DNA of 64,000 nt, from contig NZ_BBRD01000002.1 in NCBI RefSeq assembly GCF_000975095.1, forward strand, positions 124,001 through 188,000, read 5' to 3'. The first letter of the stretch is position 1, and the number at the start of each line of letters is the position of its first letter. The notes beneath the pieces were generated by a model that worked only from the letters and a program-made list of their open reading frames with translations, had not been told where the DNA came from and searched no databases. Origin of the DNA: Demequina aestuarii (GTDB lineage Bacteria; Actinomycetota; Actinomycetes; Actinomycetales; Demequinaceae). Of this stretch, positions 20,005 to 29,315 are shown piece by piece. The translations under genes were made by a program, and so were the position numbers.

Positions 20005-20436
20005 TTACGCGCCAGCGGTGCCATTGTGCCAGCCCTGAGGCAGTCCGGGTGAGACCACCGCCAGCTCGTACAGCTCGGCGGCCTGGGCGAACTCGGCGTC
20101 GTACGTCGCGACGGTGTCGATCGCGGGGTGAGCCACAGCGGCGCCCAGGTGGAGCGCAGCAAACGGCTTCAGCACTGCGGCCGCGTGCGTCGACACGGAC
20201 ACGTTCTCGTCAGAGAAACGGATCACCGGGATGGTGCGCCGCACCTGATCGACGATGTCGTAGGCGTGGCCCTTGGTCTCGCGCGGGAACAGCTCCGCGG
20301 CCTGACGCAGTTCGGTGAGCCCCAACTGGGTCATCGCGACGTCGTCGATGCGCGGCACCGCCCAGGCGTTCCATTCATCGAAGAACTTCACACCCGGCAG
20401 GAACCTGCAGAGCGCAGAGCCGTCGAGGTAGATCAC
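20005..20436 (-). CDS. PIN-domain protein (VapC-like ribonuclease), no antitoxin seen
   Basis: A 143-residue PIN-domain protein. Conserved acidic positions are Asp in VIYLDGSAL, Glu in LGLTELRQA, and the late Asp residues in HPAIDTVATYDAEF, which form the metal site of these RNases. Start GTG 20436 is 7 bases after TAGTCT, so it is probably leaderless. VapC toxins usually follow a small antitoxin gene, but the 88 bases upstream hold only a hairpin. It may be a solitary or housekeeping PIN protein, or use a distant antitoxin. Confidence 0.8.
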   Translation of the reverse strand: MIYLDGSALCRFLPGVKFFDEWNAWAVPRIDDVAMTQLGLTELRQAAELFPRETKGHAYDIVDQVRRTIPVIRFSDENVSVSTHAAAVLKPFAALHLGAAVAHPAIDTVATYDAEFAQAAELYELAVVSPGLPQGWHNGTAGA

Positions 20437-20476
20437 AGCGTCCAGACTATCCCCGTGCCGCCTGCGCGGACTGCCA

Positions 20477-20510
20477 GCCGATGCGCACGCGCCGTTGCGC
20501 ACGCATCGGC
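20477..20510 (-). terminator. Hairpin at the end of the conservon operon
   Basis: GCCGATGCG (20477-20485) pairs with CGCATCGGC (20502-20510) around a 16-base loop. It lies 15 bases past the GTPase stop on that strand. The right arm is part of a GCATCGGCC motif copy. No T tract follows. Confidence 0.6.
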
Positions 20511-20524
20511 CGTCTGGGTGGGGA

Positions 20525-21124
20525 CTACTTCGAGAGCTGGCGCATGGCGAGCTGGACCACCGCGATCAGCGCCTGCTTGGTCGCAGCCTTCTCGCGGGCA
20601 TCCGTGTACATGATGGGTGTTCCCTCGGGGATGCCGAGCGCCTCACGGACATCCTCGAGCGTGTGCCGAGCGACGCCGTCGAAGCAGTTGACGCACACCA
20701 CGAACGGCACGCCGCGGCCCTCGAAGTAGTCGACGGCCGGGAAGCACTGGTCGAGGCGCTCAGTGTCGACGAGCACCACGGCACCGATGGCACCGCGCAC
20801 CAGGTCGTCCCACATGAACAGGAACCGGTCCTGGCCAGGAGTGCCGAACAGGTACAGCCACAGCGAGCCGGGCAGCGCGATGCGCCCGAAGTCCATGGCG
20901 ACCGTGGTGGTCGTCTTGCGGTCGGTCACGCCTCCGGCATCGTCGATGCCGATGGACTTCTCCGTCATCGCCGCCTCAGTGTTGAGGGGGTCGATATCGG
21001 AGATGGAACCGATGAACGTGGTCTTGCCCACCGCGAAGCCGCCAGCGATGACGATCTTGACGACGGTGGGGGCGGTGGGAGACGCGGGGTTTGCGACCGC
21101 CGCGTCAGAGGGCTGCGATGCCAT
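20525..21124 (-). CDS. Conservon small GTPase (CvnD-like)
   Basis: A 199-residue Ras/MglA-like GTPase of the conservon type. Motifs: G1 GGFAVGKTT, the FGTPGQDRF switch II region (G3, with Pro in place of the Ala or Ser of other small GTPases) and the G4-like CVNCFDG. Conservon GTPases work with a membrane kinase, a roadblock protein and a DUF742 protein in G-protein-like signalling at the membrane. ATG 21124 follows GGAGAG and overlaps the DUF742 gene by 20 bases. It is the last gene of the four. Confidence 0.92.
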   Translation of the reverse strand: MASQPSDAAVANPASPTAPTVVKIVIAGGFAVGKTTFIGSISDIDPLNTEAAMTEKSIGIDDAGGVTDRKTTTTVAMDFGRIALPGSLWLYLFGTPGQDRFLFMWDDLVRGAIGAVVLVDTERLDQCFPAVDYFEGRGVPFVVCVNCFDGVARHTLEDVREALGIPEGTPIMYTDAREKAATKQALIAVVQLAMRQLSK

Positions 21125-21500
21125 CAAGGACACTCTCCAGAAGGCTCAGGGATAGGCCACCGGACTCGTCGTGGGTCGACTTGTCATCGGCCGTTCCGCC
21201 GGTGTAGATCGTCAGATAGTTGTCTTCAGCAAGATCCGTCACCAGCACGCGGACCACTCCGAGCGGAAGCCGGGTGTGGGCCGAGAGCTCGGCGATGGAT
21301 TGATATTGACCTGCAGCGAGCTGCAGGATCTTCTTCTTCTCGGGGGTCAGCCCCTTCAAAGTCTGTGGGTCGGAGCGGGCTTCGACGAGCGCCTCCATGG
21401 GGAGGGTCGTGCTCGCCGCGCTCACACGGCCGCCCGTGACGGCGTACGGACGGACCGCGTAGGTCTCCTCGTCGCCCAGCGGCGTCATCGAGTCTGTCAT
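21105..21500 (-). CDS. DUF742 protein of the conservon (CvnC-like)
   Basis: A 131-residue DUF742 protein: VRPYAVTGGR near the N terminus, a winged-helix-like middle (SIAELSAHTRLPLGVVRVLVTDL) and a short tail ending in LLESVLDGI. In streptomycete conservons the corresponding protein sits between the roadblock protein and the GTPase, exactly as here. It lies 15 bases after the roadblock gene and overlaps the GTPase start. Biochemical role is not well known. Confidence 0.9.
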   Translation of the reverse strand: MTDSMTPLGDEETYAVRPYAVTGGRVSAASTTLPMEALVEARSDPQTLKGLTPEKKKILQLAAGQYQSIAELSAHTRLPLGVVRVLVTDLAEDNYLTIYTGGTADDKSTHDESGGLSLSLLESVLDGIAAL

Positions 21501-21515
21501 CGCGGCCGTCCCTCC

Positions 21516-21956
21516 TTAGGAACGCAGGTGACCGTCTGTCGGCAGGTTCTGGCGCATCTCGGTGATGAGCTGCGGCGTGAGGGCGTTCTCGGTGCGCGAG
21601 ACGAGCAGGGTCATCTCGTAGCCGACCAGGCCGACGTCGCACGTCGAGTCTGCAGCGACCGCGAGCACCGAGCCGTTGGAGACGCTCATGAGGAACAGGA
21701 AGAGCTCGTCCATCTCGATGATCGACTGGCGCACCTCGCCTGCCTGGAGCTGACGTGCGGCGCCACGAGTGAGGCTCGCCATCCCGGACACGACGGCGGC
21801 GAGAGTGTCGCCTCCCGTGCGGTCGAGGTTCTTGGACATCGCCATGAGCAGTCCATCCGCGCTCACCACCAGCGTGTGTCGCGTCCCGGGGACTGTCTGG
21901 ACGAAATTGTCCAGCAGCCATCCGAAGTTGGTGGCCTCGGTGCTGAGCTCGGTCAC
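21516..21956 (-). CDS. Roadblock/LC7-domain protein of the conservon (CvnB-like)
   Basis: A 146-residue roadblock/LC7 protein, a small dimeric fold that regulates GTPases such as MglA. The core runs NFVQTVPGTRHTLVVSADG through a MAMSKNLD strand to the SVLAVAADSTCDVGLVGYEM block. GTG 21956 was chosen because AAGGAG lies five bases before it. It follows the large kinase by 73 bases and precedes the DUF742 gene by 15. Confidence 0.92.
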   Translation of the reverse strand: MTELSTEATNFGWLLDNFVQTVPGTRHTLVVSADGLLMAMSKNLDRTGGDTLAAVVSGMASLTRGAARQLQAGEVRQSIIEMDELFLFLMSVSNGSVLAVAADSTCDVGLVGYEMTLLVSRTENALTPQLITEMRQNLPTDGHLRS

Positions 21957-22029
21957 TGCGTCTCCTTGCATTGGCCGCTCCGGGGACGGAGCGAGTTCTC
22001 GATGGTGGGGATGGTACTCGCGAAGGCTC

Positions 22030-25000
22030 TCATGAGTCGGAGGCCTCCGCAGGCTCGGTCTGGCGCTCGAAGGCCGCAACGTCGTCGCGCGCCCTCTTCG
22101 TGCCCGAGTAGAAGGAACTGAAGCGACTGCGTACCGCATCGGCATCCCGGTCCGCGGGCGCCAGCGAGGCGTCCTCCTGGATCGGAGTGACCTCGACCGG
22201 GTCCGCATTGGTGGGACGGCGACGCTGCAGGCCCGCACGGGTCTTCTCGACCTTGGGCCGCTCCGCCGCGAGCGAGCTCAGCTCTGAGAACACCGCACTG
22301 GTGAGATCCGCGCCGCCCATGTCATCGCCGCCATTGTCAGGCTGGATCACCGGCTGGTAGGTGGTGGCGCCTTCGGGCTCGGCCGCCTGGAGAGCACTGG
22401 CTCCCGCAGCCTCCCATCCGGACGCCTTCGCGAGCTCGTCAGGGCTGTACGCCGTGGCGCTGGAGTCCGAGGGCGGCTCGGCCGAGTTCACGGTCTGAGA
22501 CGCGTCCCAGGCGTTGGCCTCGGGGCTCGCTCCGACATCGGGCTGGAACGACTGCGGTGCGGCAGACGGGGGCTCAGCGGGGACGGTGGGCTCGGCTCGC
22601 TCCCACGGTGCGGGTGCCTCCGGCTGAGGCGCGGACTGCAGCCACGGTGCGGACGCGGACGGCTCCGGCTGGGCGGCCTCGGGAGCCGGCGAGGAGGCCT
22701 CGGGCGCGAACGATGTCGGCGCGGGCTCCCACGGGGCGGGGGCGGAAGCGCTGCTCGGCGCCTCGCTCTCGGGGGCCGATGCGGGTTCGGGGGCCGACTG
22801 CCACGACGACGGCTGCACCACGGGCTCCGTCATCGGCAGGTACCCGCCCGGTGCCGGGGTCGACGGCGCGCTGGACGCGGATCGAGCGGCGTCCGTGGCC
22901 GCCCACGGCGCAGCGGGAGCGCCAGCGCTCGCGGCCGTGCCCGGTTCCGCGGCGGAGTCGCCGCGGCGGCCCCTGCCGAACAGCCGTGAGAAGAATCCCG
23001 GGCGCTGCTCGGTCTCATCGTCGACGGCGCTCTGAATCAGCTCATCGAGGCTGGGGTTTCGCTCGGACTCGGACGCGGGCTCGCCGCCCCACGCCGCGGC
23101 GGGAGCGTCGCTCGGAACGGCGCCTTCGACGGGCGACGCGGCCTGCGGCTCTCGGGGCGCATCCGCCACAGGAGCGTCATGGTCGATGGGTGCCTGCGGG
23201 CTCGCCATGAATCCGGGAGCAAACGCCGCGTCCTCAGCAGGCGCGTCGCCCTGCGTGGGCTCCGCGAGCCACGGCTGATCGGCGGCGCTCGGGGCGGAGG
23301 GCGTGTCGTACGCGCCGGGCGCCTCGTACGGAGCGGGAGCGTCGTGCACGCCAGGGGCGTCGTAGGCGCCGGGGGCTTCGTGCGCCACGGGTGCGTCATA
23401 CGGCGTGGGCGCGAACGGGTCAGCAGCGTCGGCGTGGTCCGTGCTCGGCGCGTCATAGGGGGACCCGGCGTGAGGAAGCTCGTCATCGACGAGCGAGACC
23501 TGCTCGACGCCACCATAGGGAGCGGGCTCGTACGACGGCGCGGGGGCCTGGTACTCATCCTCATCCGCCTCGAGAGACGGCACGACGAACGGTCCCGGGT
23601 CGACGGCCGGGGCCGGTGCACCAGCCTCCTCGGGCGCGTCGTCGTACTCGAACACCGGGGTGTCGACAGGAGTCGGCTCAGGGGTGGCGGCGGGGGACGG
23701 CGTGACATCCACCTTGGGCATGCGGAAGACGGGCAGCGACTCGGCCGCATTCGGCGCGGACGGAGCGTCCACGCTCGCGATGGTGTCGTGCGAGTCCGGG
23801 ACGTCGGGCTCGAAGGCGGGTGCGGCGGCACTCTCGGCCTCGACGTCCGCCGGCCCTCGGTCGCGGCGTGAGAAGAACGCGGCGGCCCCTGCGGCGCCGG
23901 CGACCTCGGCCGTGTCGGCGTGAGGCGCGGAGTCGGCGGTGTGGCCCGCGTCGGGGGCGACGGCATGATCGGTCGCGAGCTCATCGGGCTCGAGCTCGGG
24001 GGCGGGCATCGGCTCGCGTTTGGGCAGCTCTGGCCCGAACGAGGCCTGGGGAGACGTAGCCGCCTCCTGCTCGGTCTCGCGACGAGAGCGGAAGCCGCGG
24101 AACATCGAGGAGCGCTGCTCCGGCGACTGCGGGGTGACCTCTGTCGGCGAGATGGCGGGCGTGAACCCGCCCGCCTGCTCCGCCTCGAGAGCAGACAGCT
24201 GGGCATCGGTCGCCCGGGCGGGCAGACCCACGATGGACGCCCGTTCCCGCTGGGCGTCCGCGGGCGACGGGGCCTCGCGGCGACGGCGTGCCGGGAGCCC
24301 CGACGCCGCAGCACCGCTCGTCAGGTCCTCGGGGTTGGTCGCCTCCGCCACGGGCGCGCTGGCCGCGTCGGCGGCGATGAGAGCGTCGATCGAGTCGCGC
24401 TCGGGCTCGCCGGTGCTCCCGCGTCCCGCGAGGCTGACGCCTTCCTCGACCGCCGTCGGCGTGTACGCGTCGACCCGTGCTCCCTCGCGCTCAGGAAGGC
24501 GCGTGGTCTCGGTGATCTCCTCCGCCTCGTCGTGGGTGACGAGGGCGGTCGGGGCGTGCAGATTCTGGTCGACGGCGGTGGACGACAGGTGGTGCGGCGC
24601 GGGGGCCTCCTCCTTCGCGAACAGTGCCCGCGGCATGGTGACCGTCGCGAGCGTGCCTGCGCCTTCCTCAGACTTCAGCTCCACTCGAGCACCCACGCGG
24701 CGCGCGATGCGCCCGACCACGAACAGTCCCAGTCGCTGGGCACCGAGGATCTCCGATGCCGCGGTGGAGGCGACGCGCGCGTTCGCGGCATCGAGTTCCT
24801 TCTCGGTCATGCCGATGCCGGAGTCCTCGATCTCCACCACGTACTCATCGCCGCGCTCGAAGGTGCGGACCACGACGGCGCTGCCGGGGTCGGAGAACAC
24901 CGTCGCGTTCTCGAGCAGCTCCGCGAACAGGTGCGCCGCCGTCAGGGCGGAGTGGCCAAGCATGGCGGGGTCGGCGTCAAGTTCGAGCTGGACTCGCTCG

Positions 25001-26883
25001 TACAGCTCGATCTCGGACGATGCGGTGCGGACCACGTCGGACAGCGGCATGGGGCGACGCAGTCGGCGTCCGGTGTCGATGCCTGCGAGCACCAGCAGCG
25101 ACTCGGAGTTCCGTCGCATTCGCGTCGCGAGGTGGTCGAGGGCGAACAGCTTGGTGAGAGTCTCCTGGTTGTCCTCGGAGCGCTCCATCTCGTCGATCGA
25201 GGACAGCTGACGGTTCAGCAGCACCTGGTCGCGGCGAGCGACATTGACGAACATCTCGGAGATCGAACCACGCAGCGCGGCCTGCTCGCCGGCGATCGCG
25301 AGGGTCGCTGCGTTGACGCCGTTGAACGCCTCGGCCAGTCGTCCCACCTCGTCGCGGGACTCCACGGGGATCTGCACCTCGGAGACGTCGACGGTCTCAC
25401 CGGGGATCGCGACGCGCTCCACCAGTCGAGGCAGTTCCTGCCGCACCGCGGTGGCGGTCGTGGTCAGGCGTCGCAGCGGTCCGATGATGCGACGCGCGAT
25501 CACGAGCGCGATCACGAGCGACACGATGATGACCGCGACGATCGCGACGATCGTGACGATCGTCGACAGCAGCGCATTCTGCGCGTTGCTCGAGGCACCG
25601 GACTCCACACGCGACCACATGTCCTCGCGGAGAGGCTCGTAGACACGGAGCTCATCCGCCACCACGCCGCTCCAGTCGGCCGTGCGAGCGGTGAACAGCG
25701 AGGAGTCCAGGCCAGTGAGCACCTGGGTACGAACGGAGGCGAACGTGGTCGCCTGGTCCGTGTCAGAGCCGAAGGGGGGGACCTCATCGGCCCCCGAGAT
25801 GCCTGCGGACGCATCCTGCGCCTCCGCGAGCGCGATGTCAGTCGCGGTCGCCATGGTGCGCGCCTGCGCGGCCTCGCCAGGGAGGAACCGTCCCGCCCGG
25901 ATGAGTCGCTGGAACACGACCTCTTCGTGCTTGACGTTCTCGACCAGGGTGTCGAGGTCACCGTACGCCTGCACGGTCGACACGAGTTCACGGTCGGCCA
26001 TCGCGACGGCCACGTCGTCGGACGAGGACACGATGGTCTCGATGATGCCGGTGTAGAAAGCCGTCAGCGACACGGGGCCCGTCCCCAGCGACCGCGCGTC
26101 AGCGCGGATCTCGGGCATGGACGCGACCGCGTCCTCCCCTTCGAGGAGCGCTGCGACCACCTGAGTGTTCTCCTCGCTGCCGCCGAGCGCGGCGGCCGAA
26201 CCGCGCAGTGCCTCGACGCCTGCGTCGACGCTGGCGGCTGCAGCCTCCATCGGCTCCACGTAGGCGAGGGGCTCGGTGAACAGGCTCGTCGCGAACTCGC
26301 TCTCGACATTGAGGCGGAACGCCAGCGCTGAGAGCAGCGTCGACAGGCCCAGGTCCTCGGAGAGCGACTCGTCGAGCGCGTTGACGCCTTCCACTGCGGC
26401 GGCATAGCCGGCCTGCATCGACGCGATCGCGTCCTCGGCGGGGAACACTGCCCAGCCGCCGGACTCCTCTGTCGCCGGGGCGATCTGGAGCGCGCGCTCG
26501 GCAGTCATGTACGAGGTGCCGTCGCGTCCGATCGCCGCGTTCAGCTGCGCGCGGATCGCCTCAGGGTCCTCGGCGCCCGATTCGGTGATGGCCGTGTCGA
26601 GGCTGGTGAGCGCGGTGTCGGTGAACCCGTACGCCTCGTTGAGCTTGCTCTCCGTGTCCTGCGCCACGTGGACGAAGTTCGCGGTCGCAGCACGCTCGTC
26701 CTGGAGGTCGGCTCTCAGGGTGCGGGCGCGGTCGAGCGTGTCGATGAGCGCTTCGGCATTGCGTGCCGAACTCAGGTCCTGCAGGGAGCCGAAACCGATG
26801 AACCCGGCCGCCAACACCAGCACCAGAATGGGCACCGCGACTACCGCGAGGAGTTTCCCGCGGATACCTAGCCTCTGGAGCAT
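22030..26883 (-). CDS. Conservon sensor histidine kinase (CvnA-like) with an ~850-residue disordered tail
   Basis: A 1617-residue membrane kinase heading the conservon. Order: membrane helix (12-33), an extracytoplasmic nitrate/nitrite-sensing-type helical domain (about 40-435), membrane helix (441-464), HAMP linker, a DHLATRMRRNSESL box, and an ATPase domain with HLFAELLENATVFSDP near 653, EIEDSGIGMT and GAQRLGLFVVGRIA. After about residue 760 the protein is Pro/Ala/Glu-rich and looks disordered. It holds a run of YDAP/YEAP/HDAP units encoded at about 23290-23470 and ends in a conserved-type TRAGLQRRRP and FSSFYSGTKRARD segment. ATG 26883 has GGGAGAGAG upstream. Confidence 0.9.
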   Translation of the reverse strand: MLQRLGIRGKLLAVVAVPILVLVLAAGFIGFGSLQDLSSARNAEALIDTLDRARTLRADLQDERAATANFVHVAQDTESKLNEAYGFTDTALTSLDTAITESGAEDPEAIRAQLNAAIGRDGTSYMTAERALQIAPATEESGGWAVFPAEDAIASMQAGYAAAVEGVNALDESLSEDLGLSTLLSALAFRLNVESEFATSLFTEPLAYVEPMEAAAASVDAGVEALRGSAAALGGSEENTQVVAALLEGEDAVASMPEIRADARSLGTGPVSLTAFYTGIIETIVSSSDDVAVAMADRELVSTVQAYGDLDTLVENVKHEEVVFQRLIRAGRFLPGEAAQARTMATATDIALAEAQDASAGISGADEVPPFGSDTDQATTFASVRTQVLTGLDSSLFTARTADWSGVVADELRVYEPLREDMWSRVESGASSNAQNALLSTIVTIVAIVAVIIVSLVIALVIARRIIGPLRRLTTTATAVRQELPRLVERVAIPGETVDVSEVQIPVESRDEVGRLAEAFNGVNAATLAIAGEQAALRGSISEMFVNVARRDQVLLNRQLSSIDEMERSEDNQETLTKLFALDHLATRMRRNSESLLVLAGIDTGRRLRRPMPLSDVVRTASSEIELYERVQLELDADPAMLGHSALTAAHLFAELLENATVFSDPGSAVVVRTFERGDEYVVEIEDSGIGMTEKELDAANARVASTAASEILGAQRLGLFVVGRIARRVGARVELKSEEGAGTLATVTMPRALFAKEEAPAPHHLSSTAVDQNLHAPTALVTHDEAEEITETTRLPEREGARVDAYTPTAVEEGVSLAGRGSTGEPERDSIDALIAADAASAPVAEATNPEDLTSGAAASGLPARRRREAPSPADAQRERASIVGLPARATDAQLSALEAEQAGGFTPAISPTEVTPQSPEQRSSMFRGFRSRRETEQEAATSPQASFGPELPKREPMPAPELEPDELATDHAVAPDAGHTADSAPHADTAEVAGAAGAAAFFSRRDRGPADVEAESAAAPAFEPDVPDSHDTIASVDAPSAPNAAESLPVFRMPKVDVTPSPAATPEPTPVDTPVFEYDDAPEEAGAPAPAVDPGPFVVPSLEADEDEYQAPAPSYEPAPYGGVEQVSLVDDELPHAGSPYDAPSTDHADAADPFAPTPYDAPVAHEAPGAYDAPGVHDAPAPYEAPGAYDTPSAPSAADQPWLAEPTQGDAPAEDAAFAPGFMASPQAPIDHDAPVADAPREPQAASPVEGAVPSDAPAAAWGGEPASESERNPSLDELIQSAVDDETEQRPGFFSRLFGRGRRGDSAAEPGTAASAGAPAAPWAATDAARSASSAPSTPAPGGYLPMTEPVVQPSSWQSAPEPASAPESEAPSSASAPAPWEPAPTSFAPEASSPAPEAAQPEPSASAPWLQSAPQPEAPAPWERAEPTVPAEPPSAAPQSFQPDVGASPEANAWDASQTVNSAEPPSDSSATAYSPDELAKASGWEAAGASALQAAEPEGATTYQPVIQPDNGGDDMGGADLTSAVFSELSSLAAERPKVEKTRAGLQRRRPTNADPVEVTPIQEDASLAPADRDADAVRSRFSSFYSGTKRARDDVAAFERQTEPAEASDS

Positions 26884-28082: not shown

Positions 28083-29315
28083 TCAGTGCAGGTTGCCCGC
28101 CGCAAGCGAGGCCGCGAGCGCCGGTGAGGCCGGCAGGCGCGGGATGAGGGTGGCCTGGAGGGCGTGGTAGATGTCCGCCTTGCCTTCCCACACCGTGCGC
28201 GATACGCGGTTGTCGGTCCCCAGCTCGTGCCACCACGAGCCGCCTTCCCGGTCCAGGTGGTGCTCGCCGACGTAGTCCCACCAGCGCTGGTACTGCTCCG
28301 CATAGGCGGGCAGGCGCGTCACCTGCCACAGGACGGCGGCCGCGCCGATCGCCTCGGCCGCGACCCAGTGCATGCGCTCACGGACCACGGGGCGGCCCTC
28401 CCAGTCCACGGTGTAGACGAAGCCGGTGGCGCCGTCGACGCTCCAGCCCTCGCGCACCCCTGCGTCGTAGAGGGCGCAGGCATCCTCGCGCATCCACTCC
28501 GGGTGGGCGAGCCCGGACTGTTGGAGCGACGCCGCCAGCTGCAGCGTGAGTCTCGCCCACTCGAACCAGTGACCGATGGTCGCGCCATAGGGCCGGAAGG
28601 GGTGCGCGGGCGAGTCCTCGTTGTACGACAGCACCGGCTCCCAGTGGGCGTCGAAGTGCTCGGGCAGGCGCCAGTCGTTGCCGCGGGCGTAGACGTGAAC
28701 GGCGCGCTCGGCGATGCGCAGGGCGCGCTGCAGCAGTTCCTTGTCCCCGGTGACGTCCGCAGCAGCGAGGTATGCCTCGAGCGTGTGCATGTTCGCGTTG
28801 ATGCCGCGGTAGTCCTCCTCGCCGGACCAATCCCGCGCGAAGGCCTCCCGGCTCATGCCGGCCTCGTCGTCCCAGAAGTGCTCGGTGTGGATCGCGATCG
28901 CCTCGTCGAGCAGCTCACGGGCCTCGGGGCGCCCGGCTGCCGTCGCCGATGCGGCGGCGAGGATCACGAACGCGTGGCCGTACGCCTCCTTCGCGGTATT
29001 GGTGGGGCCGTCCGGACCCACCGCGGCGAACCAGCCGCCGTGCTCGTGGTCGCGCAGCCGACCACGCAGCGCGTCGAGGCCGTGATCGACGAGCGCGGTC
29101 GCACCCGGTCTCCCCATGAGCGTCGCGAGCGCGAAACTGTGAGTCATGCGGCACGTGATCCATAGCTCCACGTCGTGGCTCTCGACGAGTTCGCCCGCCT
29201 CATCAAGCCAGCCGAACCCTCCACTGGGATCCGCGCTGCCGGCACCGAATTCCAGGAGGCGGTCGGCCTCCGCCTCGAGCCAACGATGGTGGGCAGGGGT
29301 TGTGAGCCACGTCAT
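28083..29315 (-). CDS. AGE-family epimerase/isomerase
   Basis: A 410-residue (alpha/alpha)6-barrel protein of the N-acylglucosamine 2-epimerase family, which interconverts sugars such as mannose/fructose or GlcNAc/ManNAc. Family landmarks include the early Arg in WITCRMTHSFAL, the KEAYGHAFVILAAA block, the NANMHTLEA block, and His residues in GATIGHWFEWARL and RMHWVAAEAIGAA. The pattern looks closer to the mannose/sulfoquinovose isomerase branch than to GlcNAc epimerases, but this is tentative. ATG 29315 is 6 bases after TAGGCT. Confidence 0.85.
   Translation of the reverse strand: MTWLTTPAHHRWLEAEADRLLEFGAGSADPSGGFGWLDEAGELVESHDVELWITCRMTHSFALATLMGRPGATALVDHGLDALRGRLRDHEHGGWFAAVGPDGPTNTAKEAYGHAFVILAAASATAAGRPEARELLDEAIAIHTEHFWDDEAGMSREAFARDWSGEEDYRGINANMHTLEAYLAAADVTGDKELLQRALRIAERAVHVYARGNDWRLPEHFDAHWEPVLSYNEDSPAHPFRPYGATIGHWFEWARLTLQLAASLQQSGLAHPEWMREDACALYDAGVREGWSVDGATGFVYTVDWEGRPVVRERMHWVAAEAIGAAAVLWQVTRLPAYAEQYQRWWDYVGEHHLDREGGSWWHELGTDNRVSRTVWEGKADIYHALQATLIPRLPASPALAASLAAGNLH

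Follow-up and report, generated by a model that had tools for sequence, protein, structure and literature searches.

What could be the function of a sensor kinase tail that makes up more than half of the protein? The question is raised by a conservon of Demequina aestuarii, located on the minus strand of a window of 64,000 nucleotides (contig NZ_BBRD01000002.1, positions 124,001 to 188,000), to which all coordinates refer unless another locus is named. The locus is an ordinary four-gene conservon, an actinobacterial G-protein system, with cvnA, cvnB, cvnC and cvnD in tandem. The tail of its kinase carries six short islands of conserved sequence, and these short segments on a floppy chain are probably docking sites for partner proteins. 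The reading that we favor, with a probability of about 0.5 given the sequence comparisons below, is that the tail is a flexible tether with several docking sites, and that the elements at its end bind CvnB, the roadblock protein, or a CvnB-D/CvnC assembly.

Conserved islands and fast-evolving spacers

The kinase and the features of its tail are as follows.

22030..26883, minus strand: cvnA-type sensor kinase, 1617 codons before the stop
22033..24618, minus strand: mostly disordered tail, residues 756-1617 (composition; AlphaFold2)
24349..24471, minus strand: island 1, residues 805-845, with ...IDALIAADAA; loosest of the six; dN/dS 0.32-0.41; helix 832-841/842
24073..24312, minus strand: island 2, residues 858-937, with two GLPxR copies and SSMFRGFRSRR; dN/dS 0.13-0.18
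23059..24063, minus strand: spacer 1, residues 941-1275, fast-evolving; dN/dS 0.49-0.62
23170..23457, minus strand: seven YDAP/HDAP/YEAP units, at residues 1143-1189 and 1235
22954..23058, minus strand: island 3, residues 1276-1310, amphipathic GFFSRLFGRGRR (alignment); dN/dS 0.14-0.45
22378..22452, minus strand: island 4, residues 1478-1502, SPDELAKASGWEAAGASALQAAE; dN/dS 0.04 and 0.22, one pair saturated
22216..22308, minus strand: island 5, residues 1526-1556, AVFSELSSLAAERPKVEKTRAGLQRRR, distal LPxR-type element; dN/dS 0.05-0.14
22075..22155, minus strand: island 6, residues 1577-1603, RDADAVRSRFSSFYSGTKRARDD, terminal helix element; dN/dS 0.016 and 0.057, third pair saturated

The first-pass annotation of this DNA described a 1617-residue kinase, more than half of it a disordered, low-complexity Pro/Ala/Glu tail. 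Both the length and the description are confirmed: the part after the ATPase domain comprises 862 of 1617 residues (53%), contains 21% Ala, 14% Pro and 10% Glu, and received a predicted local distance difference test score (pLDDT) below 50 at 595 of its 862 positions when AlphaFold2 was run on the tail alignment.

The six islands were defined by aligning the window kinase with 32 relatives. Ratios of nonsynonymous to synonymous substitution rates (dN/dS) were derived from codon comparisons of the window gene with three of them (L002, L008, L007), and the values are rough because silent sites are near saturation. The spacers evolve at ratios of 0.46-0.67, compared with 0.13-0.18 for the DHp and ATPase regions. 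Islands 5 and 6 change no faster than the catalytic core, while the ratios of islands 3 and 4 vary between species pairs. The earlier suggestion of selection on the terminus, where the segments TRAGLQRRRP and RSRFSSFY are indeed present, is therefore borne out by the low ratios of islands 5 and 6, 0.016-0.14 with one value saturated, compared with those of the spacers.

Predicted structure and charge are concentrated in the same segments. Ten of the 11 tail helices of at least four residues in the AlphaFold2 model start in islands, the exception (851-855) lying between islands 1 and 2. Island 4, which has a net charge of -3, forms a helix at 1481-1501 (pLDDT blocks 84, 90 and 73), and that of island 6 spans 1581-1609, six residues beyond the island (pLDDT blocks 68-78). 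The islands also hold 33 of the 49 Lys and Arg residues of the tail. In island 3, FSRLFGRGRRG (net +4) has the highest hydrophobic moment of the 852 11-residue windows of the tail and ranks third among 18-residue windows. In a model that included the kinase domain (predicted template modeling score 0.45), islands 1 and 2 were not confidently packed against that domain.

The repeats highlighted in the first-pass annotation have a different history. The seven [YH][DE]AP units that it reported approximately were counted exactly, and they exceed chance by a wide margin (mean 0.14 and maximum 3 in 20,000 shuffled tails). They are not, however, a family feature: among 36 relatives, 28 have none, six have one and two have two, and the repeat was rejected as a functional unit for this reason. 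By eye, the same stretch is filled with different repeats in other lineages. The units are thus species-specific filler.

Tail length in the genus and its neighbors

Our Demequina group comprises 38 close loci (L002-L039), most labeled Demequina or Demequinaceae and two carrying only wider names. Tails of 32 of its kinases measure 630-946 residues (median 831); L036, which is absent from this length table and retained in the other counts, has 770. In 16 kinases of another family of the same order (f9), the median is 749 and one tail reaches 1039. The unusual length is hence a trait of the genus and its neighbors and not of the window genome alone. The claim that conservon kinases usually have shorter tails holds against our sample of the wider class, many of whose loci were picked for short open reading frames (ORFs), and fails against these relatives.

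Close relatives lacking the tail or its end segment would, by the first-pass annotation's own criterion, have refuted its reading. They were sought in all 38 loci and none was found. The kinase end lies within the contig in 36, the other two being cut by contig ends. All 33 unbroken genes have both the long tail and the end, and the three genes broken inside the tail, by a frame shift (L023), one in-frame stop (L035) or several breaks (L037), still encode the end element past the break. In L037 one of the breaks lies inside this element, which is split over two frames. In the complete D. sediminis genome (L023, 10393-12132), the tail frame is broken, by a genuine break or a sequencing error, about 470 residues past the core and the later islands are encoded in another frame.

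End elements across the family

The two end elements are not confined to this genus. An LPxR motif in a C-terminal extension of conservon kinases was described by Wuichet and Sogaard-Andersen in 2014 (PMC4316618). The window kinase carries this motif in altered form, with GLPxR at residues 862 and 886 and a distal LQRR at 1552. The window-side set contains 64 kinases: 33 from the Demequina group, 16 from f9 and a further 15 drawn from L087-L111. Within their last 150 residues, 63 have the distal form L-x-[RKQ]-R and 11 have LPx[RK]. Outside this set, 68 of 77 cvnB-linked kinases have LPx[RK] in their last 170 residues. The proximal tail harbors additional [GAS][LM]PxR copies, averaging 2.79 in the Demequina group (n=33) and 2.62 in f9 compared with 0.10 and 0.12 in shuffles; the window kinase has two.

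C-terminal to the LPxR-type element lies a second one, a helix of the form R-x-x-Phi-x-x-[FLY]-x-x-G-x3-[GA]-R, which is island 6 in the window. By eye, both elements recur in kinases of other families and also in L137, most likely a mycobacterial mfp conservon since the ORF after its GTPase gene reads as a pentapeptide-repeat protein. A tail-end search of the window genome returned a single match, the window kinase itself. The LPxR-type element is already published. For the family-wide terminal helix, no description was found in searches of an open-access library, supplements aside. A 2026 preprint on actinobacterial MfpE kinases reports no notable conservation in their longer C-terminal part (PMC13015309).

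Association of the terminal element with cvnB

If the end of the tail contacts another conservon protein, its presence might depend on gene content. The terminal element was scored with the pattern [LMFWI]..[FLYMH]..[GA]...[GA][RQGE] in the last 110 residues, which 58 of 3100 shuffled sequences also matched. Of the scoreable kinases adjacent to a cvnB gene, 137 of 144 matched (129/136 and 8/8), compared with 12 of 32 of those without one (8/19 and 4/13). The seven misses with cvnB are visible variants (L007, L008, L129, L196) or the three broken genes; counting these, all 144 cvnB-linked kinases encode the element, including every one of those picked for short ORFs. A stricter pattern, matched by 6 of 3100 shuffles, gave 124/136 with cvnB and 4/19 without. 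An end profile built from window-side kinases only was rejected as too narrow for distant kinases: among those with cvnB, 14 of 68 in the test set and 3 of 67 in the training set escaped it.

A tree built from 128 kinase cores places six losses of the element, five of them forced by well-supported branches and all in lineages without cvnB. For the trees, near-duplicates were removed, the Demequina group was thinned to eight or four rows, and the four variants and three broken genes were set by hand to element present. In paired contrasts on cvnB, four to five of seven agree, the rest are neutral and none is opposite.

Partial conservons indicate which partner might matter. One locus has cvnB alone (L133) and five have cvnB and cvnC (L156, L169, L173, L183, L185). 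In none of these loci was a cvnD found next to the kinase, and the element is retained in each of the six. It has been lost in three clades with cvnC alone (the second kinase of L144; L155 with L202 and L203; L159-L161). Retention with cvnB without cvnD, together with the three losses with cvnC alone, points to the roadblock protein. In the comparison of end motifs that the first-pass annotation called for, the end is conserved family-wide and its losses fit a role in coupling to other conservon proteins. Pairs of a kinase and a DUF742 protein only, often with a very short tail, were seen in several lineages (L144, L150-L153, L155, L159-L161, L202, L203, L207, L210, L211).

A number of observations weigh against this reading. 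After phylogeny is accounted for, only five to seven independent contrasts remain, and with p values of 0.0625-0.125 the association with cvnB is suggestive only. Two lineages with only cvnC retain a form of the element: one comprises L150-L153, L207, L210 and L211, the other L146 and L208, where the kinase and its cvnC stand opposite a full conservon. Likewise, one lineage of orphans (L195, L197, L198) keeps tail and element with no cvnB, cvnC or cvnD found in the locus. Loss in orphan kinases usually removes almost the entire tail and not the motif alone, and the picking of short ORFs enriched them in the sample and lowered the tail median outside the group. Finally, in a linear distance-matrix regression across 74 conservons, divergence of the end block tracks CvnC (beta 0.38) and not CvnB (-0.05), a signal reached by one of 39 control segments of the kinase core; the rank form singles out no partner (CvnC 0.097, a value equaled or exceeded by 69% of the 39 controls). 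Taken together, gene content suggests CvnB as the first-choice partner of the end element, with the distance-matrix test not agreeing. In L198, the kinase is followed by a short ORF that reads by eye as a membrane protein and by a LacI-like regulator.

Possible functions of the tail

In the mechanism that we favor, the L-x-R-R element of island 5 and the helix of island 6 would bind CvnB or a CvnB-D/CvnC assembly. The GTPase and the proteins that regulate it would thereby stay connected to the membrane kinase by a long, flexible chain. The extra LPxR copies and other islands near the kinase would serve as further contact sites or as anchors of this chain. A candidate docking site for the tail end is the Trp of the CvnB segment GWLLDNF, which accounts for 96% of its column in an alignment of 141 homologues; in MfpD, a CvnB, a conserved solvent-exposed Trp faces away from the GTPase (PMC13015309). 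In addition, CvnA9 is reported to bind both CvnB9 and CvnC9 (Komatsu et al. 2006, cited in PMC8510531). We infer a scaffold role for the tail, as was first proposed for it, and direct binding by its end from such patterns. The islands suggest where the kinase may hand over to the GTPase, and a short terminal peptide with named partners is now defined for testing.

In an alternative of low probability, the first contact of the end element would be the DUF742 protein CvnC, which would then link it to CvnB. Binding of CvnC9 by CvnA9 and the linear regression are in line with such an order, but the regression loses its signal in rank form, the three cvnC-only clades have lost the element, and in L133 it is retained next to cvnB in the absence of cvnC. 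We consider it similarly unlikely that the islands are mainly amphipathic segments anchoring the chain along the inner membrane or envelope, with the partners bound by the kinase domain and the end helix as one more anchor. The basic charge of the islands and the hydrophobic moment of FSRLFGRGRRG would suit membrane contact, as would the basic LFG/FFG and LFSxFRxRR segments seen by eye in further families of this order; these may resemble the membrane-targeting end of MinD. Anchoring gives no account of an element that all scoreable cvnB-linked kinases encode and that has been lost on six occasions in lineages without cvnB, nor is it easily reconciled with the acidic island 4 or with LPxR, which is not amphipathic.

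Two further explanations appear weaker. The Arg of the LPxR-type element might act in trans on CvnD as an arginine finger, a role considered cautiously in the 2014 study that published the motif (PMC4316618), in which case the tail would deliver a catalytic residue instead of serving as a scaffold. The distal element does stay basic, as the counts of L-x-[RKQ]-R and LPx[RK] given above indicate. We nevertheless regard this as improbable: the six partial conservons keep the end helix with no adjacent cvnD, which may lie elsewhere in those genomes, and a finger says nothing about the terminal helix. Least credible of all is a tail of mostly neutral, functionless low-complexity growth with a few leftover conserved residues. 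The rapid evolution of the spacers and their lineage-specific repeats are what such growth would leave behind, and island 1, like island 3 in one species pair (0.45), is held little more tightly than they are; it is contradicted by islands 2, 5 and 6, which change at core-like or lower rates, and by the presence of tail and end element in all 33 unbroken genes of the Demequina group.

An altered position in the kinase core

How the kinase would signal to proteins bound to its tail is a separate question. Its core consists of the following parts.

25669..26250, minus strand: NIT extracellular sensing domain, residues 212-405 (PF08376, E 1.8e-11)
25321..25503, minus strand: HAMP domain, residues 461-521 (PF00672, E 4.5e-8)
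25081..25263, minus strand: DHp-like helical hairpin, residues 541-601 (alignment; helices predicted by AlphaFold2)
24628..24939, minus strand: HATPase_c domain, residues 649-752 (PF02518, E 3.4e-13; N-box and G1 residues kept)

As judged by its NIT, HAMP and HATPase_c domains, this is the architecture of a CvnA, a family in which NIT is variable. The window kinase has the ATP-binding N and G1 boxes of a classical histidine kinase, with the N-box Asn and G1 Asp present in all 178 kinases compared. It lacks the His of the first DHp helix, judged by a match to CvnA8 that relies on published domain limits: residue 557 (codon 25213-25215) is Asn. Autophosphorylation of Streptomyces coelicolor CvnA8 requires H183, and its DHp is given as V168-L228 (PMC13343842). 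By spacing, H183 would coincide with residue 557 or a direct neighbor of it rather than with 584. The same study calls H183 highly conserved (PMC13343842), which would fit His584 (in the motif LDH, present in 173 of 178 kinases) better than 557 and counts against our placement.

Asn occupies position 557 in all 37 rows of the Demequina group, the window included, and in 15 of 16 from f9. Across the 178 kinases, 51 have His and the others N, E, Q, S, A, D, G, T, Y or R. This rules out the Asn as a peculiarity of Demequina; if the placement is right, 127 kinases, including that of the window, are without the acceptor. Those with His that were placed on the tree fall in one clade, which also contains kinases without it. 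The Asn557 kinase may therefore not signal through the presumed phospho-accepting His. If this reflects real loss of the phosphoacceptor, many kinases of the family would signal in some other way.

An ATP-dependent change of shape or access is more likely than phosphotransfer at the usual His position because that residue appears to be Asn while the ATP site is kept. A more elaborate version, of which we are doubtful, is that the kinases of this clade are ATP-driven, His-less receptors that expose or hide helical docking motifs, the terminal helix capturing the roadblock regulator like the tail of a eukaryotic receptor. The target of CvnA8 phosphorylation is stated to be unknown in a 2026 report (PMC13343842). 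No cognate response regulator was present among the eight window proteins scanned, which leaves the rest of the genome unsearched, and no GAF protein among the four flanking ORFs scanned, beyond which cvnF was not sought.

Comparison with known systems

The locus shares with S. coelicolor cvn1-13 and mycobacterial mfp the A-B-C-D order, a NIT-HAMP-ATPase kinase and roadblock, DUF742 and Ras/MglA-like GTPase proteins, and with conservons more generally an LPxR-type C-terminal element (PMC4316618). It differs in its 862-residue tail, LPxR copies near the kinase, a distal L-Q-R-R without Pro, and Asn for the presumed phospho-accepting His, all of which are common to its genus and partly to f9. 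CvnA8 belongs to the same kinase family and has the same ATP-binding residues. It has no extracellular sensor, an accessory GAF protein (CvnF8) and autophosphorylation at H183 (PMC13343842), whereas the window kinase has a NIT domain and Asn557 at what would be the H183 position.

DivL of Caulobacter is a kinase with Tyr in place of His. Its chain matches the window kinase core weakly (E 0.008), and it has no conservon and no comparable tail. It is a functional analogy of a repurposed kinase fold (PMC4211667) and not a related system. In Myxococcus and Thermus, MglA and MglB are comparable in that CvnB matches Robl_LC7 and, weakly, MglB chains in the Protein Data Bank (PDB), while CvnD is MglA-like according to the literature. 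We know of no tailed kinase partner of MglA/MglB. Unlike conservons, they control polarity and motility and not gene expression (PMC13343842).

Sequence sampling

Kinases outside the Demequina group came from further families within the order and class. Those cut by contig ends were left out, as were L219 (masked letters in the tail), L119, L120 and L139 (duplicates or cut), L040-L048 (distant non-conservon matches) and L049-L078 (short copies of genomes already in the set).

Gene organization of the locus

The remaining genes of the conservon are listed below.

21516..21956, minus strand: cvnB, roadblock/LC7 protein (PF03259, E 2.3e-22)
21105..21500, minus strand: cvnC, DUF742 protein (PF05331, E 1.4e-26)
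20525..21124, minus strand: cvnD, Ras/MglA-like GTPase (ORF open from 21133; family matches)

The cvnA-D order reported in the first-pass annotation was reproduced by ORF listing and a Pfam scan of eight window proteins, in which adjacent genes for a kinase, a roadblock protein, a DUF742 protein and a small GTPase follow one another in the order typical of conservons. NIT, HAMP, HATPase_c, Robl_LC7 and DUF742 all exceed Pfam cut-offs. For the cvnD ORF, PF03029 is the best match and small-GTPase models score weakly; a P-loop, GGFAVGKTTF, is visible by eye. Translation probably starts at GTG 21956 for cvnB and at ATG 21124, within the 3' end of cvnC, for cvnD. The kinase start, MLQRLGIRGK, is kept in the alignment of 33 kinases. 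One DUF742 gene was found in the 2.79-Mb genome, which therefore has one conservon as far as a DUF742 search shows.

The nearest named relatives are Demequina species, with a kinase core 90% identical to that of D. activiva. Directly downstream of cvnD lies a PIN-like ORF (20005-20502, minus strand) that scores below the Pfam cut-off. An ORF of the N-acylglucosamine 2-epimerase family is located at 28083-29315 (minus strand); its nearest NCBIfam model, matched under the cut-off, is D-mannose isomerase.

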